A DNA stretch of 64,000 bases from Idiomarina piscisalsi. GTDB taxonomy: Bacteria > Pseudomonadota > Gammaproteobacteria > Enterobacterales > Alteromonadaceae. The stretch is from contig NZ_CP022133.1 of NCBI RefSeq assembly GCF_002211765.1, positions 1,860,001 to 1,924,000 on the forward strand, in the 5' to 3' direction. Position 1 is the stretch's first letter. Each line of letters opens with the position of its first letter. Shown here piece after piece: positions 9,150-25,104 of the stretch. The position numbers were made by a program, and so were the translations under genes. Below the pieces are notes generated by a model that saw only the letters and a list, made by a program, of their open reading frames with translations, was not told where the DNA came from and ran no database searches.

Positions 9150-10340
9150 GTGGATAATATTTTATCGTTAATTGGTCGCGATCGAGAGCTGTTCTCTGGC
9201 GATATCGAACATCACGAAATGGAACTTTGCGAACAAGTTTCTTCTTCCAGCTTCCTTGTTTTAGGTGGCGCAGGTTCAATTGGCCAGGCGGTCGTTAAAG
9301 AAATCTTTAAACGCTCTCCTAAACGGCTTCATGTCGTTGATATTAGTGAAAACAACTTAGTTGAGCTGGTCAGAGATGTCCGTAGCTCGCTGGGCTATAT
9401 CAATGGCGACTTTAAAACCTTCGCTCTGGATATTGGCTCATTGGAGTTCGAAGCTTTAATGAACCACTACGGGCAGTATGATTATGTCCTCAATTTATCG
9501 GCTTTAAAGCATGTCCGTAGCGAAAAAGATCCATTCACATTAATGCGGATGCTCGACGTTAATATCTTCAATACCGATAAGAGCATTGAACACGCGATTA
9601 AACATGGCAGCCAAAAGTATTTTTGTGTTTCAACCGACAAAGCAGCGAACCCAGTCAACATGATGGGGGCGTCAAAGCGAATCATGGAAATGTTCTTAAT
9701 GAGGCGCAGTGAACAAGTGGATATATCAACAGCTCGTTTCGCCAATGTCGCATTTTCTGATGGCTCTCTCTTGCATGGTTTTAACCAACGTATTCAGAAA
9801 AGGCAGCCGATTGTTGCGCCCAACGACATTAAACGCTACTTCGTTACTCCGAAAGAGTCAGGCGAATTGTGTCTTATGTCCTGTATTTTCGGCGAAAACA
9901 GAGACATCTTTTTCCCAAAGCTGAGTGAAGCTCTGCACTTGATTACTTTTTCTGAAATTGCTGAGAAATACTTAAAACAAAGAGGCTTAGAACCCGTACT
10001 TTGTCAGTCAGAAGATGAAGCAAGAGCGCTGGCTTTAACATTACCAGAAAAAGGCCAGTGGCCATGCCTTTTTACAGGAAGTGACACCACCGGAGAAAAA
10101 GACTTTGAAGAGTTTTTCACTCACGATGAAACTATCGAAATGAACCGCTTTTGCAATATTGGTGTGGTTAAAAATGAGCTGAATTATTCATCTGACTTAC
10201 TGAAAAACTTTGAACACGAAATCCTTAAACTCAAGCAGTCAAAATGCTGGAATAAACAGGATATCATTGATCTCTTTTGTACTTTGCTGCCAAACTTTGA
10301 TCATAAAGAAACTGGCAAGTACCTCGACAGTAAAATGTGA
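9150..10340 (+). CDS. Nucleotide-sugar 4,6-dehydratase (LegB/PseB class)
   Basis: This 396-residue extended short-chain dehydrogenase should convert a UDP- or GDP-GlcNAc to the 4-keto-6-deoxy sugar, the first committed step. Rossmann motif GGAGSIGQ lies near residue 40 and VVDISENN follows. The catalytic region reads STDKAANPVNMMGASKR (Thr162, Asp163, Lys164). The usual YxxxK Tyr is Met172 with Lys176, as in the CapD/PglF/FlaA1 class. The start is GTG at 9150, which gives MDNILSLIGR. It is the first gene of a nine-gene operon and 9 bp before the aminotransferase. Whether it inverts C5 (pseudaminic) or not (legionaminic) cannot be read directly; the neighbours favour legionaminic. Confidence 0.85.
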   Translation: MDNILSLIGRDRELFSGDIEHHEMELCEQVSSSSFLVLGGAGSIGQAVVKEIFKRSPKRLHVVDISENNLVELVRDVRSSLGYINGDFKTFALDIGSLEFEALMNHYGQYDYVLNLSALKHVRSEKDPFTLMRMLDVNIFNTDKSIEHAIKHGSQKYFCVSTDKAANPVNMMGASKRIMEMFLMRRSEQVDISTARFANVAFSDGSLLHGFNQRIQKRQPIVAPNDIKRYFVTPKESGELCLMSCIFGENRDIFFPKLSEALHLITFSEIAEKYLKQRGLEPVLCQSEDEARALALTLPEKGQWPCLFTGSDTTGEKDFEEFFTHDETIEMNRFCNIGVVKNELNYSSDLLKNFEHEILKLKQSKCWNKQDIIDLFCTLLPNFDHKETGKYLDSKM

Positions 10341-10349
10341 ATTAGCCTT

Positions 10350-11513
10350 ATGTCACCAACGACATCTCAACTCAGCGAGTTTATCCGGTCACTCTATCAG
10401 ACCAATGAGTTTATTCCCTTGCACGCGCCAACCTTTGGCGAACGGGAAAAGCAGAATGTTCTCGACACGATAGAAAGCAGCTTTGTTTCCAGCGTCGGTG
10501 AATACGTCACTCGTTTTGAGAACCAAGTGGAGGCTTTTACCGGGGCTCATAGAGCAATCGCAACAGTCAATGGTACCGCAGCTCTTCACGCCGCTTTGTA
10601 TATGGCGGGTGTTCAGAACGGTGATTATGTCATTACTCAGGCGTTGACGTTTGTCGCAACCTGCAATGCAATCCACCACATGGCTGCTGAGCCAATTTTT
10701 ATCGATGTGGCTTATCAGACCATGGGAATGTGCCCTATAGCACTTGAGTCCTTTCTTGAAGAACATGCAATAACAGATGGACAAAATTGCATTCACAAAA
10801 CGTCTAAGCGAAAAATCCGTGCCTGCGTTCCTATGCATACTTTTGGGCACCCGGTTCAATTAGATGAATTACTGGCTATATGTAACAAGTGGAACATCGA
10901 GCTGGTAGAGGATGCAGCTGAGAGTTTAGGCTCACTTTATAAGGGACAGCACACTGGAACTAAAGCGCGTTTTTCAGCACTGAGCTTTAACGGCAACAAA
11001 ATTATTACCACTGGCGGCGGTGGTATGCTGCTGTGTGCCGATGAAACCGAAGGTCATAGAGCAAAGCACATAACGACAACGGCTAAGGCTGCTCACCCGT
11101 ACGAGTTCTATCATAACGAACCGGGCTTTAATTACCGAATGCCAAACCTTAATGCTGCTTTAGGTTGTGCACAAATGAGTCACCTTGAAACATTTATTGA
11201 GAAAAAACGTGAACTGGCAGAACAATACAAGGCGTTCTTTAAAAGCTCCAGTTTCCAGTTTATCGATGAACCTTCAGAGTGTCGCTCCAACTTTTGGTTA
11301 AATGCTATTTTGTGTGAGCATAGTGACCTGCGCAATACGGTCATTGAAGAACAAAATAACGCTGGGATTATGTGTCGTCCAGCATGGCATTTAATGAATA
11401 GACTTCCCATGTTCGAGCATTGCCCACGTGGTAAGCTGACGGTATCAGAGGATATACAATCCCGCTTGGTGAATATACCAAGTTCACCCATTTTAAAGAG
11501 GGATGACCAATGA
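10350..11513 (+). CDS. LegC-like PLP-dependent sugar aminotransferase
   Basis: This 387-residue member of the DegT/DnrJ/EryC1 family would put an amino group on C4 of the 4-keto-6-deoxy sugar, using glutamate. The PLP-binding lysine lies in FNGNKIITTGGGGML, and an aspartate in VEDAAESLGS binds the pyridine nitrogen. It follows the dehydratase by 9 bp and its stop overlaps the next start (ATGA). Length and the sequence around the lysine fit the LegC subgroup, named for the legionaminic-acid pathway, rather than PseC. The family call is strong; the exact substrate comes from context. Confidence 0.85.
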   Translation: MSPTTSQLSEFIRSLYQTNEFIPLHAPTFGEREKQNVLDTIESSFVSSVGEYVTRFENQVEAFTGAHRAIATVNGTAALHAALYMAGVQNGDYVITQALTFVATCNAIHHMAAEPIFIDVAYQTMGMCPIALESFLEEHAITDGQNCIHKTSKRKIRACVPMHTFGHPVQLDELLAICNKWNIELVEDAAESLGSLYKGQHTGTKARFSALSFNGNKIITTGGGGMLLCADETEGHRAKHITTTAKAAHPYEFYHNEPGFNYRMPNLNAALGCAQMSHLETFIEKKRELAEQYKAFFKSSSFQFIDEPSECRSNFWLNAILCEHSDLRNTVIEEQNNAGIMCRPAWHLMNRLPMFEHCPRGKLTVSEDIQSRLVNIPSSPILKRDDQ

Positions 11514-12658
11514 AGGTGACCGTTTTTACCGGAACCCGGGCTGATTATGGACTTTTATACTGGCTGCTTCACGATTTATGTGAAGACCCAGCATTTCATT
11601 TGCAGGTTATAGCGTCTGGTTCGCACTTATCACCGGAATTCGGTTATACCGCGAAGCACATCGAACAAGATGGCTTTAAAATTGATGAGAAAGTCGAAAT
11701 GCTGCTCTCCTCAGATACAGCACAGGGTACCGTTAAAAGCCTTGGCATGGGTATTATCGGTTACGCCGATGCCTTAACCAGACTACAGCCTGATGTTGTG
11801 GTTATTCTGGGCGATCGTTATGAAGCTTTAGGAATAGCCCAGTCTGCTATGTTAATGCGAATACCGATACTGCATATTCACGGTGGTGAAATTACCGAAG
11901 GTGCCTATGATGACGCCATTCGCCATGCCATTACCAAGTTGAGTTATCTGCATGCTACCGCAACAGAAAAATACCGACAGCGAGTCATTCAGCTCGGTGA
12001 AACACCGGAGCGCGTTTTTAATGTTGGCGCACTCGGCTTAGATCACATAGCTCGCACAGAACTGCTAGACCATAAAGAGCTTGCCGAATCCCTTGGCTTT
12101 GAGTTGCGCAAGGACTTTTTCGTTGTCACATACCACCCGGTAACATTAGCTGACGAACCGCCGGTTGAAACTTTCAGAAACTTGACTCAAGCTCTGGATA
12201 ACTATCCTGAGTTTGACGTCATTTTCACTTACCCGAATGCTGACGATGGCGGACGACAAATTATTCCGCTGATTGAGCAATATGCAGATGCAAATGAAAA
12301 TCGCGTTATAGCCATTCCATCATTAGGTCAGCAGCGTTACTTAAGCGCGATTAAACATGCCAGTGCAGTAATCGGAAACTCTTCGAGTGGAATTATCGAG
12401 GTTCCCTCTTTCAATACACCGACTGTCAATATAGGTCAGCGCCAGTTGGGCCGCTTAGCAGCGGAAAGTGTCCTTCATTGCGAAGGTTCATACGATGCTA
12501 TCGTCAATGCAATAGATAGAGCCGTTACTGCTGATATCGGTGAAAATATTAATAACCCATACGGACAAGGCAACGCCAGCCGTAAAATCATTGACATTCT
12601 TAAGTCTGCTAATTTGAATAGAACGAAGACTTTTTACGATATTGGAGAAAACCAATGA
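11510..12658 (+). CDS. Hydrolysing nucleotide-sugar 2-epimerase (NeuC/LegG)
   Basis: This 382-residue member of the UDP-GlcNAc 2-epimerase superfamily (GT-B fold) inverts C2 and releases the nucleotide, giving the free trideoxy-mannose-type sugar. Visible motifs are TGTRADYGLLYWLL at the N terminus, ILGDRYEALG, HIHGGEITEGAYDDAIRHAI, and the C-terminal IGNSSSGIIEVPSF nucleotide-binding loop. It overlaps both neighbours by 4 bp (ATGA), so translation is probably coupled. A NeuC/NeuB pair distinguishes the legionaminic/sialic route from the PseG route. Confidence 0.9.
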   Translation: MKVTVFTGTRADYGLLYWLLHDLCEDPAFHLQVIASGSHLSPEFGYTAKHIEQDGFKIDEKVEMLLSSDTAQGTVKSLGMGIIGYADALTRLQPDVVVILGDRYEALGIAQSAMLMRIPILHIHGGEITEGAYDDAIRHAITKLSYLHATATEKYRQRVIQLGETPERVFNVGALGLDHIARTELLDHKELAESLGFELRKDFFVVTYHPVTLADEPPVETFRNLTQALDNYPEFDVIFTYPNADDGGRQIIPLIEQYADANENRVIAIPSLGQQRYLSAIKHASAVIGNSSSGIIEVPSFNTPTVNIGQRQLGRLAAESVLHCEGSYDAIVNAIDRAVTADIGENINNPYGQGNASRKIIDILKSANLNRTKTFYDIGENQ

Positions 12659-13722
12659 CCCTTATTATTGCAGAAGCCGGGGTTAATCATAATGGCGACC
12701 GAGAGATGGCGCGCAAGTTAGTTAAGGCTGCCAGCGACGCAGGTGCTGACATTGTCAAATTTCAGACTTTCAAAGCACAGAATCTGGTCACAAAAGAGGC
12801 GCAGCAAGCTGACTATCAATCTAGAAACATCGGTAGAAAAGAGAGCCAATATGAAATGTTAAAGCGGCTCGAACTGACTCCAGAGATGCACTATGAGCTA
12901 ATTGCTTATTGTAAAGAGTTGGGTATTGAGTTTCTATCAACAGCTTTCGATGATGAAAGTCTGCGCTTTTTAGTCGGTGAATTAGGTCTAACTCGCTTGA
13001 AAGTTCCATCGGGCGAAATTACTAATGCTCCGTTCTTGCTAAATCACGCTCGTACGAAATGCGACTTAATTGTTTCTACCGGAATGGCAACACTAGCGGA
13101 AATAGAGAAAGCGCTGTCTGTTATTGCTTTTGGTTATCTCGATAAAGTAACAGAAAAGCCTACAGCGGCCGATTTTGAGGCTGCTTATTCTTCAGTTGAG
13201 GGGCAAGAATTACTTCAAAGTAAAGTCTCAATACTTCACTGTACAACAGAGTACCCCGCGCCTTTTGATGAAATAAACTTAAACGCAATGACTACGATAC
13301 ATCAAGCATTCAAACTTCCTGTTGGATACTCTGATCATAGCAACGGTATAATTATTCCCATTGCCGCAGCGGCAAAAGGCGCACGCATTATCGAAAAGCA
13401 TTTCACTTTGGATCGTGATTTAGAGGGCCCCGATCACAAAGCGTCACTCGAACCAGAGGAGTTGACGAATATGATTGACTCAATAAAAAAAATCGAAAAA
13501 GCATTGGGAGATGGTATAAAACGCCCCACACCATCAGAAGCTTTGAACAAACCAATAGCTCGAAAAAGTATAGTAACTCTAAAACCGATAAAAGAAGGTC
13601 AGAGAATCTCAATTGACGATATCGCAATAAAGCGCCCGGGCAATGGTCGTACGCCATTTGATTATTGGGAGTTAATCGGAAGTGTAGCGTTGAAGAGTTA
13701 TAAAGAGGATGAATTAATTTAA
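12655..13722 (+). CDS. Nonulosonic acid synthase (NeuB/LegI)
   Basis: This 355-residue enzyme condenses the free six-carbon sugar with phosphoenolpyruvate to the nine-carbon acid. It has an N-terminal TIM barrel (IIAEAGVNHNGDREMA, KVPSGEITN, HCTTEYPAP, GYSDHSNGI, EKHFTLDRDLEGPDHKASLEP) and a C-terminal SAF/antifreeze-like domain from about residue 290 (RKSIVTLKPIKEGQRIS). All typical metal- and PEP-binding motifs are present. The context favours a legionaminic rather than N-acetylneuraminic product, since 4,6-dehydratase and aminotransferase genes precede it. It shares one base with the following formyltransferase. Confidence 0.92.
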   Translation: MTLIIAEAGVNHNGDREMARKLVKAASDAGADIVKFQTFKAQNLVTKEAQQADYQSRNIGRKESQYEMLKRLELTPEMHYELIAYCKELGIEFLSTAFDDESLRFLVGELGLTRLKVPSGEITNAPFLLNHARTKCDLIVSTGMATLAEIEKALSVIAFGYLDKVTEKPTAADFEAAYSSVEGQELLQSKVSILHCTTEYPAPFDEINLNAMTTIHQAFKLPVGYSDHSNGIIIPIAAAAKGARIIEKHFTLDRDLEGPDHKASLEPEELTNMIDSIKKIEKALGDGIKRPTPSEALNKPIARKSIVTLKPIKEGQRISIDDIAIKRPGNGRTPFDYWELIGSVALKSYKEDELI

Positions 13723-14621
13723 TGAAAATAGGATACTTCGCAGATGGTCCCTGGGCTCACAAAGCTATTGAACTTTTGGCTAATGACCCAGATATAGAAA
13801 TCGCTTTTATTGTCCCTAGGTTTGATAAGCAAGATCCCGTTTTAAAGGACTGGGCAAAACAGCTTAGAATTCCCTTTCTAGTTTGTGAAAATGTCAATAA
13901 AAATAGCTTTCTTCAACAGGTTTCAGAATTCAACTGCGATCTTTTTGTTTCCATGTCATTTAATCAAATTATTAGGAAACCCTTGCTCGAAGTCCCATCT
14001 TTGGGTTTTATTAATTGTCATGCTGGAGCTCTGCCGTTTTACCGAGGAAGAAATCCACTTAACTGGGCATTAATCAATGGGGAAAAAGAATTTGGTATAA
14101 CCGTGCATTACATAGATGAAGGAATAGATACAGGCGACATTATTGAACAGAAAATGTTACCTATCTCTCAGGACGACACCTACGGAACCTTATTAGAAAC
14201 AGCAATCAACAACTGCGGACATGTACTCTTTAAAGCGATTAAGAACCTTTTCAATGATCAAGTAAGAAGAGTTCCTCAGAAGACAATTCACCCTGTAGGA
14301 ACATACTTTTGCCAACGTAAACCCGGGGACGAATTCATACGGTTCGACTGGACATCTGAAAGAGTATTTAACTTTGTCAGAGCACTAGCATATCCTGGGC
14401 CACTCGCTAAATTCCGATATGGTGGAGTAATCTATGATATTCATAGCGCAAAACTAATTGAAGATGCGCCAGAATATATCTGCATAGAAGGTATAGTCAC
14501 TAATGTGAATGGAAGTATTATTACAGTGAAGACACTGGATTCAACGATTCAACTTAACGTCTCCGCAAGCACTAAAAGTTCACCTTCGACTTTAAGAGTT
14601 GGAGCCAGACTAGACTTTTAA
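13722..14621 (+). CDS. Sugar N-formyltransferase-family protein
   Basis: This 299-residue protein belongs to the methionyl-tRNA/GAR formyltransferase superfamily, which uses N10-formyltetrahydrofolate. The catalytic triad is visible as Asn98, His100 (INCHAGALPFYRGRNP) and Asp136 (GIDTGDI). The 2- and 36-residue spacings match N106/H108/D144 of E. coli GAR transformylase. A C-terminal OB-like domain follows from about residue 205. It sits inside the nonulosonic-acid operon, where an N-acetyltransferase (LegH) is expected and none is found. It probably formylates the 4-amino group of the dideoxy sugar, giving an N-formyl legionaminic derivative. The family is certain; the substrate is inferred. 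The sequence looks AT-richer than the housekeeping genes. Confidence 0.85.
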   Translation: MKIGYFADGPWAHKAIELLANDPDIEIAFIVPRFDKQDPVLKDWAKQLRIPFLVCENVNKNSFLQQVSEFNCDLFVSMSFNQIIRKPLLEVPSLGFINCHAGALPFYRGRNPLNWALINGEKEFGITVHYIDEGIDTGDIIEQKMLPISQDDTYGTLLETAINNCGHVLFKAIKNLFNDQVRRVPQKTIHPVGTYFCQRKPGDEFIRFDWTSERVFNFVRALAYPGPLAKFRYGGVIYDIHSAKLIEDAPEYICIEGIVTNVNGSIITVKTLDSTIQLNVSASTKSSPSTLRVGARLDF

Positions 14622-14651
14622 ACTTCAGTAGAAATACCAGGCGATAATACA

Positions 14652-15704
14652 ATGAACGAGAGATGGAAACGAATACTTATAAAACCTAATCAATCGATTC
14701 GCCATGCTCTTGAAGTCATAGAGCAAGAGTCTTTGAGAATTGCGATCGTTATTGGGCAACAAAATGAACTGTTTGGCGTAGTTACTGATGGTGATATTCG
14801 CCGAGGATTAATTAGTGGTTTAGCTCTTACAGATCCAGTATCAAAAGTAATGAATTCGTCTCCAGTAACGGCGAGTAACACAGTTACCCGTAAAGAAGCA
14901 ATTAAATTGATGGAGTCCAAAGGCTTATTAGCTATTCCTTTGCTAAATCAAGGTAAAGTTGTCGGTTTAGAGACATTGCAAAGATCCGGCTCAGGACGTT
15001 CTTATGAAAATCCTGTTTTTTTAATGGCTGGAGGTTTTGGAACTCGGTTGCGTCCCCTTACCGATAACTGCCCCAAGCCTTTATTGAAAGTTGGCGATAA
15101 GCCCATTCTTGAAATTGTACTAAACAGTTTTATTCGTACTGGCTTTAAAAATTTCTATATCTCTACTCACTACTTGCCAGATATGATTCGAGAGTACTTC
15201 GGTGATGGTTCTAAGTGGAAAGTAAACATCCATTATGTACACGAAAATAATCCACTCGGAACTGGAGGCGCTTTAGGCTTATTACCAGACGATATTGAAC
15301 CCCTTCCCCTAATTATGATGAATGGTGATGTACTCACTAATGTAGATTTCGAGAAGGTATTAGAATTCCACAACCAATATCAACCGTTTGCAACAATGTG
15401 TGTCCGTGATTACGAGTATCAAGTACCATTTGGAGTCATTCAGGGGGAGGAGCATAAAGTAGTACAAATGAAAGAAAAACCTGTTGAACACTACTTTATT
15501 AATGCCGGGATTTACGTTGTCAGTCCAGAGTTGCGCCAACAAGTGAAGACTGACACGTATTTAGATATGCCCACGCTGCTAGAAAAAGTCATTGCGAAAA
15601 ACAACGACGTAGTGATGTATCCACTTCGCGAGTATTGGTTGGATATAGGTCGAATCGAAGACTATAAACGAGCGCAACTCGATATTATCAACTTGGATTT
15701 ATGA
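14652..15704 (+). CDS. CBS-domain sugar-1-phosphate nucleotidyltransferase (PtmE-like)
   Basis: This 350-residue protein has two CBS motifs at about residues 1-115 (for example IAIVIGQQNELFGVVTDGDI), then a nucleotidyltransferase domain starting at MAGGFGTRLRPLTDNCPKPL. The same layout occurs in Campylobacter PtmE, which makes GDP-GlcN for the legionaminic pathway. That suggests the pathway here runs on GDP-linked intermediates. CBS domains usually bind adenine nucleotides and may gate activity. The gene is 30 bp after the formyltransferase and overlaps the next gene by 4 bp. Confidence 0.85.
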   Translation: MNERWKRILIKPNQSIRHALEVIEQESLRIAIVIGQQNELFGVVTDGDIRRGLISGLALTDPVSKVMNSSPVTASNTVTRKEAIKLMESKGLLAIPLLNQGKVVGLETLQRSGSGRSYENPVFLMAGGFGTRLRPLTDNCPKPLLKVGDKPILEIVLNSFIRTGFKNFYISTHYLPDMIREYFGDGSKWKVNIHYVHENNPLGTGGALGLLPDDIEPLPLIMMNGDVLTNVDFEKVLEFHNQYQPFATMCVRDYEYQVPFGVIQGEEHKVVQMKEKPVEHYFINAGIYVVSPELRQQVKTDTYLDMPTLLEKVIAKNNDVVMYPLREYWLDIGRIEDYKRAQLDIINLDL

Positions 15705-16660
15705 ATATGAAAAAAGTGGCAGTTATTGGCTGCGGTAGTATAGGCCAACGCCATCTTCGAAATGTGAAAAACTTGTTCTCTGAAGCTGTGGTCTGCGCTA
15801 TCCGCTCTGGTAGTGGTAATACTTCATGCCCGGCAGCTGCCGATCGACTAATTCCTCTAAGAGAACTGGATTCCTCTTTTGAGCTTGCTATTGTCGCTTC
15901 ACCCGCTAATTTTCATGTAGCGCACGCCAAACATTGTCTTAATTTAAATATACCGACGCTAATAGAAAAACCGCTGGCCCAAGACTATACTCAGGGGCTG
16001 CATTTCGTCGACTCTTTGAACTCAAGTAATAAAAAGTTAGCCGCCGTCGCCTATTGTTTGAGATACCTGCCCTCTGCTCAATTTATGAAACAGCTAATTA
16101 AGCAGAAGCAACTAGGTCAAATATACAACGTTAACGCAGAAGTCGGTCAGTATCTGCCCGACTGGCGTCCCGGTACCGATTACAGTCAATCGGTATCGGC
16201 ACGTTCAGACCTGGCCGGCGGCGCACTAAACGAACTGAGCCACGAATTGGATTACATCAATTGGCTGTTCGGAGTCGATGAGGTTTTGTCTGCTTCACTA
16301 CGTCGCTCTCAAGAGCTAAATACCAATGTTGAAGAAATTGTCGATACCCAGATAAAGCTGAAAAATGGTGCAATAGGCACAGTTCACCTTGACTTCTTAC
16401 AAAAAAGACCTCATCGGAAATGTACTATTATTGCCGAAAAAGCGCGAGTTGAGTGGGACTTGATAGCTAATTCCATTACTCAATTTACTGCTAACGGCGT
16501 TACGACACTCTTTGATGACTGCGAGTATGACAAAAACCATATGTACCTGAATATGATCAATGACTTCATCGCACAAAAGCAAAATACGGCTAGCCTAAAC
16601 GAAGGGCTTGAGGTTTTACGCATCATTCAACATATTAGGGAGCGCGCCCAAAATGTCTAG
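15701..16660 (+). CDS. Gfo/Idh/MocA-family oxidoreductase (PtmF-like)
   Basis: This 319-residue NAD(P)-dependent oxidoreductase has an N-terminal Rossmann motif (VAVIGCGSIGQRHLRNVK) and the EKPLAQ motif near residue 90, which supplies the catalytic Lys. A C-terminal alpha/beta dimer domain contains GGALNELSHELDYINWLFG. Campylobacter PtmF is a homologue implicated in supplying the amino-sugar precursor of legionaminic acid. The start overlaps the end of the preceding gene and its own end overlaps the CMP-sugar synthetase, so it belongs to the operon. Confidence 0.8.
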   Translation: MNMKKVAVIGCGSIGQRHLRNVKNLFSEAVVCAIRSGSGNTSCPAAADRLIPLRELDSSFELAIVASPANFHVAHAKHCLNLNIPTLIEKPLAQDYTQGLHFVDSLNSSNKKLAAVAYCLRYLPSAQFMKQLIKQKQLGQIYNVNAEVGQYLPDWRPGTDYSQSVSARSDLAGGALNELSHELDYINWLFGVDEVLSASLRRSQELNTNVEEIVDTQIKLKNGAIGTVHLDFLQKRPHRKCTIIAEKARVEWDLIANSITQFTANGVTTLFDDCEYDKNHMYLNMINDFIAQKQNTASLNEGLEVLRIIQHIRERAQNV

Positions 16661-17345
16661 AACTATTGCTTTCGTCTTTGCGCGAGGCGGCTCTAAAGGG
16701 CTTCCGGGAAAAAATATCAAGGCTCTGTGTGATAAGCCCTTGATTCAGTATTCCATTGACCGCGCTCTTGCTAGCGAGCTTATTGATGATATCTATGTGT
16801 CAACCGATGACGCCGATATTGCTCATGTTTCACGAGAACGCGGAGCCAAGGTCATTGACCGTCCAAAAGAACTTGCCACTGATGACAGTCCGGAGTGGCT
16901 ATCCTGGCAACATGCCATAACCTGGGTTACGCAGCATACCGGATCTTTCGAAACATTTGTCAGTCTGCCGGCAACAAGTCCCTTAACGACTGTTGCTGAT
17001 GTTAATTCAGCTATCTTCCGACTAAAGCAATCCGATGCGGATATTTGCCTATCGGTTACACCCTCTAATCATCATCCCAGTTTTAATATGGTCACCTTAG
17101 ATGATGAGCAATATGCGAGCTTAATGTTTAACTCAGAAAGCAAAATTACTCGACGCCAGGATGCGCCTAAAGCTTACAACATAACAACTTGTGTTTATGC
17201 AGCAACAACAGATTTTGTGTTGGCCGCAAAAGGACTCTTTGACGGTAAAGCCACCGCAATAGAAGTGCCCAGAGAGCGGGCCGTTGATATTGATGATATT
17301 ATAGATTTTAAATTTGCAGAGCTGCTAATGACGGAGCGAAACTGA
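16653..17345 (+). CDS. CMP-nonulosonic acid cytidylyltransferase (NeuA/LegF)
   Basis: This 230-residue cytidylyltransferase activates the nine-carbon acid as its CMP ester for the glycosyltransferase. The signature FARGGSKGLPGKNIK and the LPATSPL motif are clear. The start at 16653 (MSRTIAFVFARGG) is used rather than an upstream in-frame ATG at 16608: it has GGGAG about 10 bp upstream and removes a 15-residue extension lying inside the previous gene. It overlaps the next gene by 1 bp. It would be LegF (PtmB) in the Campylobacter scheme. Confidence 0.9.
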   Translation: MSRTIAFVFARGGSKGLPGKNIKALCDKPLIQYSIDRALASELIDDIYVSTDDADIAHVSRERGAKVIDRPKELATDDSPEWLSWQHAITWVTQHTGSFETFVSLPATSPLTTVADVNSAIFRLKQSDADICLSVTPSNHHPSFNMVTLDDEQYASLMFNSESKITRRQDAPKAYNITTCVYAATTDFVLAAKGLFDGKATAIEVPRERAVDIDDIIDFKFAELLMTERN

Positions 17346-18073
17346 TGCTGTCAGGAAAAACAATCTTAGTGCTGGGGGCAAAAGGCCTTATTGGTCAGGC
17401 GGTGGTGCAACACATTGCTCAGAAAAGCGGGCGAGTTATTGCCGCTGACATAACCTCTGATGAGTCGACCTCTGCTAAAGTCATTACCCATGTTTGTGAC
17501 ATCACTTCGGAAGCCGATGTAGAGCAATTACTGAGTCGATACCCTGATATTGATGGTATCGTAAATTGCGCTTACCCAAGAAATAATCAATATGGTACCG
17601 ATGCGCTGGAAGTCTCCTCCTCCTCATTCAATGAAAATGTCGCTCTTCAGTTGGGGTCATGTTTTAATCTTTTAAAACACGCCGCAAAACACTTTAAGTC
17701 AAGACAAAAGCCATTATCGGTTGTACTTTTAAGCTCTATTTATGGCATTAAAGCTCCGGAGTTCTCCATTTACGAGGGCACCTCAATGACAACGCCTGTA
17801 GAGTATGCAGCGGTTAAGTCGGGATTAATTCATCTGACCAAATACTTTGTCAAATATATTAATCACTCAAACTTCCGTGTGAACTGTGTGTCTCCTGGCG
17901 GCATCGAAAATGGTCAGCCTGCGCCGTTTTTAAGCGCCTATAAAGATAAAACTCTCGGTCACGGAATGCTAGATGCTAAAGACATCTGCGGGAGCATTGC
18001 CTTTCTGCTCTCAAATGAAGCTAGCTATATCAACGGAACTAATTTAACGGTTGACGATGGATTTACCCTATAA
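17345..18073 (+). CDS. Short-chain dehydrogenase/reductase (PtmA-like)
   Basis: This 242-residue classical SDR has the Rossmann motif VLGAKGLIGQAV and IVNCAYP in place of the usual NNAG. Catalytic Ser lies in VLLSSIYG, and Tyr/Lys in VEYAAVKSG (YxxxK). The NCVSPGGI and C-terminal INGTNLTVDDGFTL motifs are present. Campylobacter PtmA is the corresponding enzyme in the flagellar legionaminic cluster, working with PtmF at an early precursor step. It is the last gene of the operon; Maf converges on it from the other strand with a 33-bp gap and no obvious terminator. Confidence 0.8.
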   Translation: MLSGKTILVLGAKGLIGQAVVQHIAQKSGRVIAADITSDESTSAKVITHVCDITSEADVEQLLSRYPDIDGIVNCAYPRNNQYGTDALEVSSSSFNENVALQLGSCFNLLKHAAKHFKSRQKPLSVVLLSSIYGIKAPEFSIYEGTSMTTPVEYAAVKSGLIHLTKYFVKYINHSNFRVNCVSPGGIENGQPAPFLSAYKDKTLGHGMLDAKDICGSIAFLLSNEASYINGTNLTVDDGFTL

Positions 18074-18106: not shown

Positions 18107-20176
18107 TTATTCAGCAGACATCGTACATTTCTCTAACCACGCCGTCTTAAAATCAGTTTTTGCTTCGGACAAAAAGCCAATCCATTTACGCATCGCAACA
18201 TTAAAATGTTCAACGCAGTGCTCTTCATCATTATTCAAAAATAGAATCGATATCATAGGACAATGAAAGTACAGTAATTCACCCTCAAGAACATAATGAA
18301 GATGTGAATAGGTTGACCCCCTGTGACTGTATAGGTATCTTGATTGCCTTCTAATATTATCTAACGCTTCTTCACGCGAATAGACTTTCTCACCACTAAT
18401 CTCAATTAAGTGGTCACATATTTCATCGTATTTCTCAAAGTCTAAATATCTACTGAAATCTTCACACTGAAACTTATCGAACAAGTCACTTTTAATGTGT
18501 TCGACAACTAGGTTTTTATCAATATCAAAAAACTCCGGCAGTAAATGGTTTGGATGTAAGGGTAAAGCACCTTCGACCTTAGCACCGTCGCCAACGTTGT
18601 AGCATTCAACCCCTAAAACTTTACCATAATTTTCAAGTAACCTTCCCATTTGTCGGGCGGACATCGCCAACAAATTTGACGACATAACAGTACCACCAAA
18701 ATTACCTTCTAATTTATGAGGGGCTTTATGCATTTTTATAGACTTTAACGGTCCTTTATAATAATCCGAATCTTTAGCATGGTGTCTACCATCTGCGGCA
18801 TAACCATTATCAACACCAAATAAATATATTTGCTTGAAGCCTAGGTGCAAAGCATAGGACAAGCTCGTATTCGCAACCATCGGGTTACAGAATGATAAGT
18901 AGTTAAGAGGCTTATTTTTCTCATTGAGAAGAGCAAAGTTTAATAAATCGCCCCCAGCATCAATGCCTTTTCCAGCCATTCCTACCCAATGGTATAGGGG
19001 CACAACATCCGGATAAATGAGGTTCAGCGTCAATAAGTTTAATTTCTTATATTGCTCAGCAGGAAGCGACCTCAATAAAATGTCATAAGTAATCTTAGGC
19101 CGCTCAACCAATGTGTGAAAGTCTGGGACAATATCATGCTTAAGTAAAGTCTGCAGTGCAGTGCCTGCCGCAATGATTATCGCCTGCTCTTGAGTTTCTT
19201 TTATAAAATCTAAACTTTCATCAAGAGAGGGGCCGTTCCCTACCACATAAATCGGAAAACGCTGAAACTTATTTAGTGCATTCCCCCTTATCTTAAGAAG
19301 GTTCATTCCGTGACTGGCGTTATGTACAGTGTGAGCTATAGCTGTTGTCGCATCGTTATAAAAACCATATCCGCTGTGCATTTCAAACAGGCGCTGATAG
19401 AACAGCGTAATAAGCTCGCCGGTAATTTGTGATGGGTAATGCTGATAACAAAAACATTTGGTTAAGGAAAACGCACCGATATCCTGAGAAACTCGATAGA
19501 GATCATCAATGAACGTCTGATAGGAGGCTCCTAACTGAAAAATAAGAACTCCATATTGCTCATCGACTTGTTCAATAAGTGACTTCCAGTCAATACAATA
19601 CAAGCTACAGTAAAAATTTTCGAAGCTAGGTTCAATTAAGTAAATATAGTCAAATTGAGTTCTATTCAATAAAACCGGTAAGTGGTAACCCAAACCGATA
19701 CCAAATATGACAGCAGTTGGAAACCGGTCCGGAAGCATATCTAACCTTTCATATTTCCCTGCTTCTTTAACCGAAATACCTAACTGTTTTAGGTGACGAG
19801 CATGAAGCCGATCATCATCATCAGAAACCTCGGCATATGATGAAAAATCAATATGATTTATAACAGGCTTTTTGATGTGCTTTTCAACCTGTTCTTCCAC
19901 TTGCGCGATAGGGTCATTTCCATATAAGGCAACTCCGGTTTTATGTTCCCGGATGTTCCCATGGCCTGTTTCGGTGACAAACAATTGAAGTGGCTCATTG
20001 GACTGAAACTCTTCAATGCTTTTAGCGATATTAGGATAGAAAGATTGAAAGGCTTCGAGGTTGGATTGAAATCTAAGCTCGGCTTCTTCTGCAAACAGTT
20101 TTTCGCGCTCTATCTGAGTTTCTGAGGCTTTTAGTCTTTGCATCAACTGTGAAAGTTGATCTTGTATATTATCCAT
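18107..20176 (-). CDS. Maf flagellin glycosyltransferase (DUF115 / MptE-like)
   Basis: This 689-residue protein is of the motility-associated-factor family. The DUF115 core contains GNGPSLDESLDFI at about residue 300, FHTLVERP, and the later GVDNGYAADGRHHAKDSDYY. An N-terminal domain with a short coiled coil precedes it. Maf proteins transfer CMP-activated pseudaminic or legionaminic acid to flagellin Ser/Thr in the cytoplasm, and this family needs no lipid carrier. It lies 69 bp downstream of the fliT-like gene on the same strand, probably in the flaG-fliD-fliS-fliT transcript, and converges with the sugar operon that would make its donor. Confidence 0.85.
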   Translation of the reverse strand: MDNIQDQLSQLMQRLKASETQIEREKLFAEEAELRFQSNLEAFQSFYPNIAKSIEEFQSNEPLQLFVTETGHGNIREHKTGVALYGNDPIAQVEEQVEKHIKKPVINHIDFSSYAEVSDDDDRLHARHLKQLGISVKEAGKYERLDMLPDRFPTAVIFGIGLGYHLPVLLNRTQFDYIYLIEPSFENFYCSLYCIDWKSLIEQVDEQYGVLIFQLGASYQTFIDDLYRVSQDIGAFSLTKCFCYQHYPSQITGELITLFYQRLFEMHSGYGFYNDATTAIAHTVHNASHGMNLLKIRGNALNKFQRFPIYVVGNGPSLDESLDFIKETQEQAIIIAAGTALQTLLKHDIVPDFHTLVERPKITYDILLRSLPAEQYKKLNLLTLNLIYPDVVPLYHWVGMAGKGIDAGGDLLNFALLNEKNKPLNYLSFCNPMVANTSLSYALHLGFKQIYLFGVDNGYAADGRHHAKDSDYYKGPLKSIKMHKAPHKLEGNFGGTVMSSNLLAMSARQMGRLLENYGKVLGVECYNVGDGAKVEGALPLHPNHLLPEFFDIDKNLVVEHIKSDLFDKFQCEDFSRYLDFEKYDEICDHLIEISGEKVYSREEALDNIRRQSRYLYSHRGSTYSHLHYVLEGELLYFHCPMISILFLNNDEEHCVEHFNVAMRKWIGFLSEAKTDFKTAWLEKCTMSAE

Positions 20177-22997: not shown

Positions 22998-23978
22998 TTA
23001 TCCAAGTAACTGTAGAGCCGCCTGTGGACGCTGATTCGCCTGAGCAAGGATAGTCTGCGAAGCCTGTTGCAGAATCTGTGCCTGAGTCAGCTTGGCTGTT
23101 TCAGCCGCGAAGTCAGCATCTTTGATACGAGATTTCGCCGCTTCCAGGTTTTCAGATACATTGCCTTGGTTACGGATCGTTGATTGGAAACGGTTTTGTA
23201 CCGCACCCAGCTCAGCACGCTTTTTATCAACAACGGCAATCAATGAATCCATACCTGCAAGTACCGCTTGAGCATTATCCTGGGTTGAAACTGAAATACC
23301 ATCAACTGTAAAAACACCGGCGAAATTAACATCTGCAGATGTAGCGATAGCAGTCGAATTATATGTTTCAGCAGTACCATATGAATTTATGAGCGTTTCA
23401 CCGGTTACTTCTGCGGCAATGCCTGCTATACCTGATAAGGTAAATCCTCCGTTAGCGCTTACGCCGTTTGTAGAAACCGCAGAGCCACCAACTGTTTTCA
23501 TTGAGAAGTCTATCGTTTGGTTTGCGTCTGCACCAACCTGGAAGCTAGCTTCATACGAACCGTTCAACAGGTTCTGACCACCGAAAGTGGTATCTTCTGC
23601 GATACGGTTAACTTCGCTCATCAATACACGAATTTCTTCCTGAATCGCTAAGCGGTCTTCATCCGTATTAGAGCCGTTAGCAGCTTGCTGCGCCAAAGTA
23701 CGTACACGCTGGAAGGTGTTAGTTACTTCGTCCAGTGCACCTTCAGCAGTTTGCGCCAAAGAAATACCGTCATTCGCGTTACGGTTACCTTGGTTCAGAC
23801 CCATAACCTGTGACTCAAGACGGTTTGAAATTTGTAAGCCTGCAGCGTCATCAGATGCGCTGTTGATGCGGAAGCCTGACGACAAACGTTCAAATGCTTG
23901 GTCAAGCGAGTTACCTGAGCTGATCAGCTGACGCTGGGCGTTCAATGAGCTGACGTTAGTGTTTACATATAATGGCAT
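22998..23978 (-). CDS. Flagellin (copy A)
   Basis: This 326-residue filament subunit, exported by the flagellar apparatus, has conserved N-terminal (MPLYVNTNVSSLNAQRQLIS) and C-terminal (AQILQQASQTILAQANQRPQ) coiled-coil D0/D1 regions. The central variable part, about residues 165-245, is rich in Ser and Thr and a likely glycosylation surface. The start at 23978 has AGGAGC before it; an upstream in-frame ATG at 24056 is rejected because it lies near the promoter and gives a non-flagellin leader. Outside the centre, the DNA is nearly identical to the neighbouring flagellin copy B. Confidence 0.95.
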   Translation of the reverse strand: MPLYVNTNVSSLNAQRQLISSGNSLDQAFERLSSGFRINSASDDAAGLQISNRLESQVMGLNQGNRNANDGISLAQTAEGALDEVTNTFQRVRTLAQQAANGSNTDEDRLAIQEEIRVLMSEVNRIAEDTTFGGQNLLNGSYEASFQVGADANQTIDFSMKTVGGSAVSTNGVSANGGFTLSGIAGIAAEVTGETLINSYGTAETYNSTAIATSADVNFAGVFTVDGISVSTQDNAQAVLAGMDSLIAVVDKKRAELGAVQNRFQSTIRNQGNVSENLEAAKSRIKDADFAAETAKLTQAQILQQASQTILAQANQRPQAALQLLG

Positions 23979-24035
23979 AATAATGCTCCTTTGTTTACTT
24001 AGGTTATTTCGTTCAAAAAATAACCCTCGTATAAG

Positions 24036-24062
24036 GTAACGGCTGAAAGCCGGCAAACTTTA
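24036..24062 (-). promoter_or_regulatory. Sigma-28 promoter of flagellin copy A
   Basis: On the minus strand TAAAGTTT (24055-24062), 11 bp, then GCCGTTAC (24036-24043). The -35 box is an exact match to the E. coli FliA consensus and the spacing is exact. The site is about 60 bp before the flagellin ATG. Confidence 0.85.
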
Positions 24063-24132: not shown

Positions 24133-25104
24133 TTAGCCCAGAAGCTGTAACGCCGCCTGTGGGCGCTGATTAGCCTGTGCAAGAATAGTCTGAGAAGCCT
24201 GTTGCAGAATCTGAGCCTGTGTCAGCTTGGCTGTTTCAGCCGCGAAGTCAGCATCTTTGATACGAGATTTCGCCGCTTCCAGGTTTTCAGCAACATTGCC
24301 TTGGTTACGGATCGTTGATTGGAAACGGTTTTGTACCGCACCCAGTTCAGCACGCTTTTTATCAACAACGGCAATCAATGAGTCCATACCTGCAAGAACT
24401 GCTTGAGCACCTTCTTGAGTGCTGACCGAAATACCATCTGCTTCAAATACAGCAGCAAACGAAAGAGCAGACGCTCCGTTGTTCGAAGCAGTAAATGTAG
24501 CCGTACCATATGTCGCTGTCAACGATTCGCCAGTTACCACTGAGGCAATTCCTGCAATACCTGATAATGTAAAACCACTGTTTGCAGTTAAGCTATTTGC
24601 AGTACCATTACCCCCAACATTTTTCATTGAGAAGTCTATCGTTTGGTTTGCGTCTGCACCAACCTGGAAGCTAGCTTCATACGAACCGTTCAACAGGTTC
24701 TGACCACCGAAAGTGGTATCTTCTGCGATACGGTTAACTTCGCTCATCAGTACACGAATTTCTTCCTGAATCGCTAAGCGGTCTTCATCCGTATTAGAGC
24801 CGTTAGCAGCTTGCTGCGCCAAAGTACGTACACGCTGGAAGGTGTTAGTTACTTCGTCCAGTGCACCTTCAGCAGTTTGCGCCAAAGAAATACCGTCATT
24901 CGCGTTACGGTTACCTTGGTTCAGACCCATAACCTGTGACTCAAGACGGTTTGAAATTTGTAAGCCTGCAGCGTCATCAGATGCGCTGTTGATGCGGAAG
25001 CCTGACGACAAACGTTCAAATGCTTGGTCAAGCGAGTTACCTGAGCTGATCAGCTGACGCTGGGCGTTCAATGAGCTGACGTTAGTGTTTACATATAATG
25101 GCAT
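24133..25104 (-). CDS. Flagellin (copy B)
   Basis: This 323-residue flagellin has the same N-terminal and C-terminal polymerisation regions as copy A. The variable segment, about residues 165-242, differs: here it contains KNVGGNGTANSLTANSG and SNNGASALSFAAVFEAD. The start has AGGAGC at the same spacing as copy A. It has its own sigma-28 promoter and terminator, so each flagellin is separately transcribed. Polar-flagellated relatives often use several flagellins along one filament; that role is inferred. Confidence 0.95.
   Translation of the reverse strand: MPLYVNTNVSSLNAQRQLISSGNSLDQAFERLSSGFRINSASDDAAGLQISNRLESQVMGLNQGNRNANDGISLAQTAEGALDEVTNTFQRVRTLAQQAANGSNTDEDRLAIQEEIRVLMSEVNRIAEDTTFGGQNLLNGSYEASFQVGADANQTIDFSMKNVGGNGTANSLTANSGFTLSGIAGIASVVTGESLTATYGTATFTASNNGASALSFAAVFEADGISVSTQEGAQAVLAGMDSLIAVVDKKRAELGAVQNRFQSTIRNQGNVAENLEAAKSRIKDADFAAETAKLTQAQILQQASQTILAQANQRPQAALQLLG

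Follow-up and report, generated by a model that had tools for sequence, protein, structure and literature searches.

The window analysed here, a stretch of 64,000 nucleotides (bases 1860001-1924000) of the single-contig genome of Idiomarina piscisalsi (2,587,498 bases, estimated 100% complete), contains an operon for the sialic-acid-like sugar legionaminic acid (Leg). In this operon, a predicted sugar N-formyltransferase (FT) occupies the place beside LegI, here called the slot, that holds a NeuD-type gene in most related operons. We consider it likely that FT formylates the C4 amine of an amino-sugar intermediate and that the pathway ends in cytidine monophosphate (CMP)-5-N-acetyl-7-N-formyl-legionaminate (CMP-Leg5Ac7Fo), destined for flagellin. 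Formylation at C4 before LegG acts, giving an N-formyl group at C7, was proposed in the initial annotation and is the best-supported reading, given the swap in the slot, the exchange seen on trees, the loci with LegC and FT that lack LegG and LegI, and a genome with no NeuD orthologue.

The operon and its formyltransferase

Nine open frames on the + strand (9150-18073) make up the operon, which is preceded by a MurJ gene on the opposite strand and followed by a Maf gene. Beyond Maf come FliS, FliD, FlaG, and a pair of similar flagellin genes. The operon genes, in their order, and the downstream features are:

9150..10340, + strand: nucleoside diphosphate (NDP)-GlcNAc 4,6-dehydratase in the LegB role, of the PglF/CapD type (PF02719, 154 bits; phmmer E 2e-203 to PDB 3PVZ, residues 1-396)
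10350..11513, + strand: LegC aminotransferase (TIGR04181, 534 bits, cut-off 420)
11510..12658, + strand: LegG hydrolysing 2-epimerase, NeuC family (TIGR03568, 478 bits, cut-off 236)
12655..13722, + strand: LegI legionaminate synthase, NeuB family (TIGR03569, 490 bits, cut-off 400; PseI model 241, below its cut-off of 340)
13722..14621, + strand: FT, predicted sugar N-formyltransferase (PF00551, PF02911; triad N98/H100/D136)
14652..15704, + strand: PtmE homologue, a CBS pair with a sugar-1-phosphate nucleotidyltransferase (PF00571, PF00483; named by domain make-up, after the initial annotation)
15701..16660, + strand: PtmF homologue, Gfo/Idh/MocA oxidoreductase family (PF01408, PF22725; named from gene order and the same annotation)
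16653..17345, + strand: LegF, CMP-nonulosonate cytidylyltransferase (PF02348; TIGR03584, 150 bits, below the PseF cut-off of 206)
17345..18073, + strand: PtmA homologue, short-chain dehydrogenase (NF006619, 301 bits, cut-off 255; NF050062 FlagModPtmA, 177, below its cut-off of 350)
18107..20176, - strand: Maf-type flagellin glycosyltransferase (PF20157, 165 bits; PF01973, 108 bits)
22998-24056 and 24133-25104 (mechanical open reading frames), - strand: two similar tandem flagellin genes (Flagellin_N, 149 bits each; Flagellin_C, 86 and 85 bits)

All nine genes are present, by curated models and Pfam, as the initial annotation stated and at its coordinates; as it also noted, no LegH-type acetyltransferase is found among them, and the triad Asn98/His100/Asp136 that it described as intact in FT stands at exactly those positions. 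LegC, LegG, and LegI score above curated cut-offs for the CMP-legionaminate pathway (the LegC model is classed as a hypothetical equivalog, those for LegG and LegI as equivalogs of NeuC and NeuB), while LegB and LegF are placed in it by Pfam only. With the PseC and PseI models, the operon proteins fall below the cut-offs. Overlaps of 1-4 bases are observed at five junctions (LegC/LegG, LegG/LegI, LegI/FT, PtmE/PtmF, and LegF/PtmA). The mechanical open reading frame of LegF begins at TTG 16608, and the alternative ATG at 16653 is likely its start. A promoter scan gave 28 candidates against a shuffle mean of 25.4, with no excess, and searches of plasmid and phage collections returned no match of >=60% identity.

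FT belongs to the folate-dependent formyltransferase family, with 94 bits to PF00551 (Formyl_trans_N, cut-off 26.1) and a triad that is invariant in 16/16 aligned rows. Its predicted structure (predicted local distance difference test score, pLDDT, 88) matches the fold of Fmt/ArnA over the full length. The protein is not Fmt (TIGR00460, 141 bits, below the cut-off of 201.5; outside the Fmt clade, with the genome's own Fmt encoded elsewhere), nor ArnA (NF005998, 126 bits, below the cut-off of 777 of a model for the whole bifunctional protein; separate clade), nor a LegH of the NeuD/PglD fold (no TIGR03570 match at E<=0.001). An FT profile gives 62-63 bits for PseJ chains, far short of ArnA (137-141) and the best Fmt (144); PseJ is absent among the 50 fold matches listed for the FT model, which excludes nothing.

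Slot-type FTs group in a single clade (support 100/99) that is distinct from ArnA, Fmt, and FT2, a formyltransferase-like protein of relatives described below, in a tree for which the tool warns of long branches meeting. The tree omits L015, L059, L061, and L129 and was built before L143-L145 were added; L129 contains an FT-like frame (35% identity, 58 bits) that was not counted as FT. Source labels of the clade cover four phyla (Pseudomonadota, Cyanobacteriota, Bacteroidota, and Bacillota), several of them on metagenome-assembled genomes (MAGs), and NCBIfam models, tested on the window's FT, leave it unassigned. FT has the lowest GC content at third codon positions in the operon (0.33), and since LegI (0.36) and PtmE (0.35) are close to it, composition gives no clear sign of recent acquisition.

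Exchange of FT and NeuD beside LegI

Of 295 genomes in the same taxonomic family, 45 have a LegC match at E<=1e-80, the window's own among them, and the other 44 loci were compared, with Leg genes named by BLAST to the window's proteins. Forty of them have LegC, LegG, and LegI. In 32 of these full-core loci a NeuD-type gene (>250 bits) adjoins LegI, and all 32 slot NeuDs match TIGR03570; in two, L100 and L130, FT stands in its place. The slot of the remaining six holds neither: it is cut by the contig end in L110, is empty in L113 and L131, and contains an Acyl_transf_3 protein in L133, where a weaker NeuD lies elsewhere in the locus; in L135 a weaker NeuD adjoins LegC instead, and L134 has a GNAT-like protein, an unknown protein, and a methyltransferase.

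The closest comparison comes from the genus itself. Locus L094 reads LegB LegC LegG LegI NeuD PtmE PtmF LegF PtmA, which is the order of the window with one gene exchanged, and the operon of genome G303 is identical gene for gene, with NeuD at the position of FT. Only the window's own genome has FT among 19 of the genus. A gene-order search matched 20/295 family genomes and found slot-type FT only in this genome and two others (56-58% identity), the remaining matches (28-36%) being in longer ArnA-like or ~320-residue frames. This swap suggests that FT fills the LegH role by 4-N-acylation.

Some of the exceptional slots deserve a description of their own. The GNAT-like protein (PF13480, 27 bits) and its unknown neighbour lie at L134:4865-6800 and the Acyl_transf_3/SGNH protein at L133:4543-6576; they may represent two further types of acyl enzyme, after NeuD and FT. 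L131 (G311, same genus) is a Leg operon without NeuD or FT in the slot, and a NeuD-type gene (E 6e-32) is located elsewhere.

Within and beyond the family, 21 FT loci were collected from the gene-order search, a contig scan, the family LegC loci, and class and phylum draws, including the window and the contig-end fragment L061 (L048 and L100, being duplicates of L041 and L049, were not counted again). The class draw gave FT at E<=1e-60 in 2/369 genomes and the phylum draw in 3/398, the window's genome being counted in both. The three extra loci from these draws, chosen without regard to context, all have LegC, LegG, and LegI, and L143 shows the exact gene order of the window. FT touches LegI in 18 of the 21 loci; in the other three, the locus lacks LegI (L040 and L052) or the contig ends (L058).

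NeuD (>=100 bits) is found in two of the 21 FT loci (L054 and L058) and in 1/16 of those with a whole FT, LegC, LegG, and LegI, compared with 32/38 of the family's full-core loci that lack FT (Fisher p 9e-8). Within the family sample, window included, the figures are 0/3 and 32/38 (p 0.008); both p values are a guide only, as the samples were drawn differently and the rows are related. In L054 and L058 the two genes stand side by side (L054:9327-10894 and L058:4593-6131), possibly for two acyl forms or for another position.

LegC and LegI trees of 43 loci (16 FT, with L054, which has both genes, labelled FT, and 27 of the 32 NeuD-slot loci, omitting L119, L122, L124, L125, and L127) require the FT/NeuD label to change 8 times, where shuffled labels average 13.2 changes; well-supported branches force at least 5 of the 8. 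Because the label changes this often, the FT and NeuD genes look interchangeable. On the LegC tree, whose bootstrap is not fully settled, the window groups with six NeuD loci (99/98), including three from the same genus; the LegI tree has the same group with weaker support (92/95). Such recurrent replacement at one place is the pattern expected of two enzymes that catalyze one step but differ in the acyl group. It indicates repeated exchange at the acylation step of nonulosonate synthesis, as would be expected if small changes in surface epitopes are selected, for instance, speculatively, by phage recognition.

Proposed pathway and its alternatives

The reaction, cofactor, product, and acceptor that we infer for FT are as follows. 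LegB and LegC would produce NDP-linked 2-acetamido-4-amino-2,4,6-trideoxy-glucose, and FT would place a formyl group, probably from N10-formyl-tetrahydrofolate, on the C4 amine, the same amine that the NeuD-type enzyme of relatives is expected to acetylate. LegG would then release and epimerise the sugar, LegI would add phosphoenolpyruvate, and LegF would yield CMP-Leg5Ac7Fo. Maf, the likely user of the CMP-sugar, would transfer Leg5Ac7Fo onto flagellin, with the two flagellins as likely acceptors. The slot gene would thus be a predicted readout of the C7 N-acyl group.

The early position of FT in this scheme is best seen in L040 and L052, which have LegC and FT and neither LegG nor LegI; in L040 they are accompanied by LegB and a WecB-like epimerase that does not resemble LegG. 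When searched for LegI at E<=1e-20, the genome of L052 gave no match and G055, the genome of L040, only a partial one. The two loci show FT to be independent of the nine-carbon sugar, and an NDP-4-amino sugar as its predicted substrate fits them. Both are polysaccharide loci (L040:9832-13106 and L052:8857-10891), predicted to make a 4-formamido bacillosamine-type sugar.

The same loci bear on the idea of a late action of FT, either at the C5 amine or on the finished nonulosonate. Such a reaction would give a 5-N-formyl product like the 5-N-formyl-legionaminic acid of Halorubrum sp. PV6, whose Leg cluster has a predicted FT gene (PMC6137143). We regard the chances of this as very remote: LegG and LegI are both missing from L040 and L052, where FT accompanies LegC; a C5 swap should require a deacetylase, and PIG-L is absent from the genome; and in relatives it is a different FT type that accompanies PIG-L. 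As no PIG-L deacetylase is present, the C5 N-acetyl group is expected to stay.

The initial annotation had also proposed a search of the genome for LegH homologues, and profiles find none in the complete 2.59 Mb sequence. A NeuD profile built from the 32 slot sequences has no match there at E<=1e-10, while it reaches E 1e-86 to 2e-90 in the same-genus genomes G303, G300, and G296; a LegH elsewhere in the genome was rejected on this profile result. Among other FT genomes, the profile finds nothing in G434 and only a 44-bit fragment match in G363. TIGR03570 matches 13 stretches of the window's genome, the best with 59 bits against a cut-off of 161. Four of the proteins were scanned and are DapD (L032), CysE (L027), a WcaF-like protein, and a WlbB-like hexapeptide acetyltransferase of another polysaccharide cluster (86 bits as a whole protein, same cut-off); L026, L028, and L029 were taken for lipid A genes, putatively, by length and sequence start. 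The seven PseH-type GNAT matches, at 12-41 bits, all stay below the cut-off of 93, and the five that were scanned match RimI models best, one of them above the TIGR01575 cut-off.

These hexapeptide proteins leave room for another scheme, in which a different acetyltransferase would work in trans on the C4 amine and FT would formylate another sugar. The WlbB-like and WcaF-like proteins share a polysaccharide cluster, and two empty-slot relatives carry NeuD elsewhere. We nevertheless find trans-acetylation highly unlikely, with no NeuD orthologue in the genome and FT touching LegI in most of its loci (18/21); the WlbB-like protein, moreover, could be explained by the oxidoreductase and DegT-like aminotransferase beside it (open reading frames read by eye).

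A final alternative keeps the proposed steps and changes the sugar: the product would be a stereo- or N-acyl variant, such as an epimer, and Leg5Ac7Fo would be inexact. The PF02719-type dehydratase, compared with the PF16363 type beside LegC in L131, speaks for this, and the scores of LegC, LegG, and LegI, which pass their curated cut-offs where the PseC and PseI models do not, speak against it; we rate it the least probable of the alternatives. Regarding the nucleotide, PtmE, PtmF, and PtmA act in the guanosine diphosphate (GDP)-linked route of Campylobacter jejuni, and by analogy their homologues point to a possible GDP-linked route here. The closest solved relative of the dehydratase, 3PVZ, is labelled by its depositor as a UDP-GlcNAc 4,6-dehydratase, which points away from GDP.

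Several observations weigh against the formation of CMP-Leg5Ac7Fo as proposed. NeuD and FT occur together in L054, a Clostridium MAG, and on the short contig L058, so their exclusion is not absolute. G533 (L134) has a Leg operon with neither FT nor NeuD, and the absence of NeuD therefore proves nothing by itself. The empty-slot relatives L113 and L131 (genomes G431 and G311) have NeuD elsewhere in the genome, and outside the L040 locus G055 matches the NeuB family in part (38% over 159 residues). The WlbB-like acetyltransferase could in principle act in trans. Furthermore, no residue column in LegG, LegI, LegF, LegC, or PtmE cleanly splits FT from NeuD loci, in a comparison that left out L054, L059, and L143-L145.

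Known systems and a second cassette in relatives

PseJ is a formyltransferase for the acyl step of a nonulosonate pathway, and ArnA and WbkC use NDP-4-amino sugars, as PDB titles also indicate. FT resembles the N-terminal domain of ArnA and WbkC in fold and triad positions. Unlike ArnA, it falls in a separate clade (WbkC is not in the tree) and has no fused dehydrogenase, and its predicted substrate, NDP-4-amino-4,6-dideoxy-GlcNAc, differs from theirs. PseJ has been solved (PDB 6CI2/6CI4, name from PDB) and acts at the acylation step, as predicted for FT; its chains, of 192-217 residues, seem too short for the C-terminal domain that FT has. Pse5Ac7Fo, which differs from the window's predicted Leg product in stereochemistry, is known chemically, for example in Pseudoalteromonas distincta KMM 638 (PMC3210612).

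The CMP-legionaminate pathway of C. jejuni is GDP-linked (PMC13317340, PMC7439481), and its LegB/C/H/G/I/F and PtmE/F/A correspond to the window in steps and, by family, in accessory genes. Unlike C. jejuni, the window has FT instead of LegH, a PF02719-type dehydratase, and a predicted C7 N-formyl rather than N-acetyl group. Halorubrum sp. PV6 has an N-formyl Leg, as predicted for the window, and its Leg cluster likewise includes a gene predicted to encode an FT, but there the formyl group is at N5, LegH and a NeuD homologue are kept, and the sugar belongs to an archaeal N-glycan (PMC6137143). Formyltransferase genes at the place of another strain's acetyltransferase are described in a Geobacillus flagellin glycosylation island (fdtC to fmt3, a dTDP-3-amino sugar; PMC5109656) and in Pectobacterium strains (Fmt3 versus WbbJ2, a formyl/acetyl difference, sugar not named in the accessible text; PMC4875605); unlike the window, neither account involves legionaminate. 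A review lists N-formyl among the natural C5/C7 substituents of pseudaminic acid (Pse) and Leg and, in the text available, does not name Leg5Ac7Fo (PMC6388019). Our literature search, mostly without subscription papers, met neither this name nor a 7-N-formyl-legionaminate or an enzyme for one.

Outside the window, relatives contain FT2, which is ~25% identical to FT and is paired with a PIG-L/BshB1-like deacetylase in 7/7 FT2 loci seen:

L041:7164-8716, FT2 locus, with FT
L055:13037-14580, FT2 locus, with FT
L092:11335-12222, FT2 locus, with NeuD
L103:6925-7821, FT2 locus, with NeuD
L105:6939-7826, FT2 locus, with NeuD
L115:11306-12208, FT2 locus, with NeuD
L130:11311-12201, FT2 locus, with FT

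The pair is located between LegG and LegI in six loci and just after LegG in L055. In all seven, Gly-(Phe/Tyr)-His replaces the Asn-x-His of FT and Fmt, and without the catalytic Asn FT2 may not transfer formyl. The cassette suggests deacetylation and re-acylation at C5, and its occurrence beside either NeuD or FT suggests that the C5 and C7 acyl choices are independent; the archaeal 5-N-formyl-Leg may be made by a similar FT2/PIG-L-like route. A modular legionaminate code is a tentative extension, plausible but short of probable, in which NeuD or FT beside LegI would set the C7 N-acyl group and PIG-L with FT2 would reset that at C5, giving 5Ac7Ac, 5Ac7Fo, 5X7Ac, and 5X7Fo as exchangeable surface epitopes, where X may be a group other than formyl. 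PIG-L-type deacetylases without FT2 are present in L050, L059, L114, L119, L122, L127, and L135.

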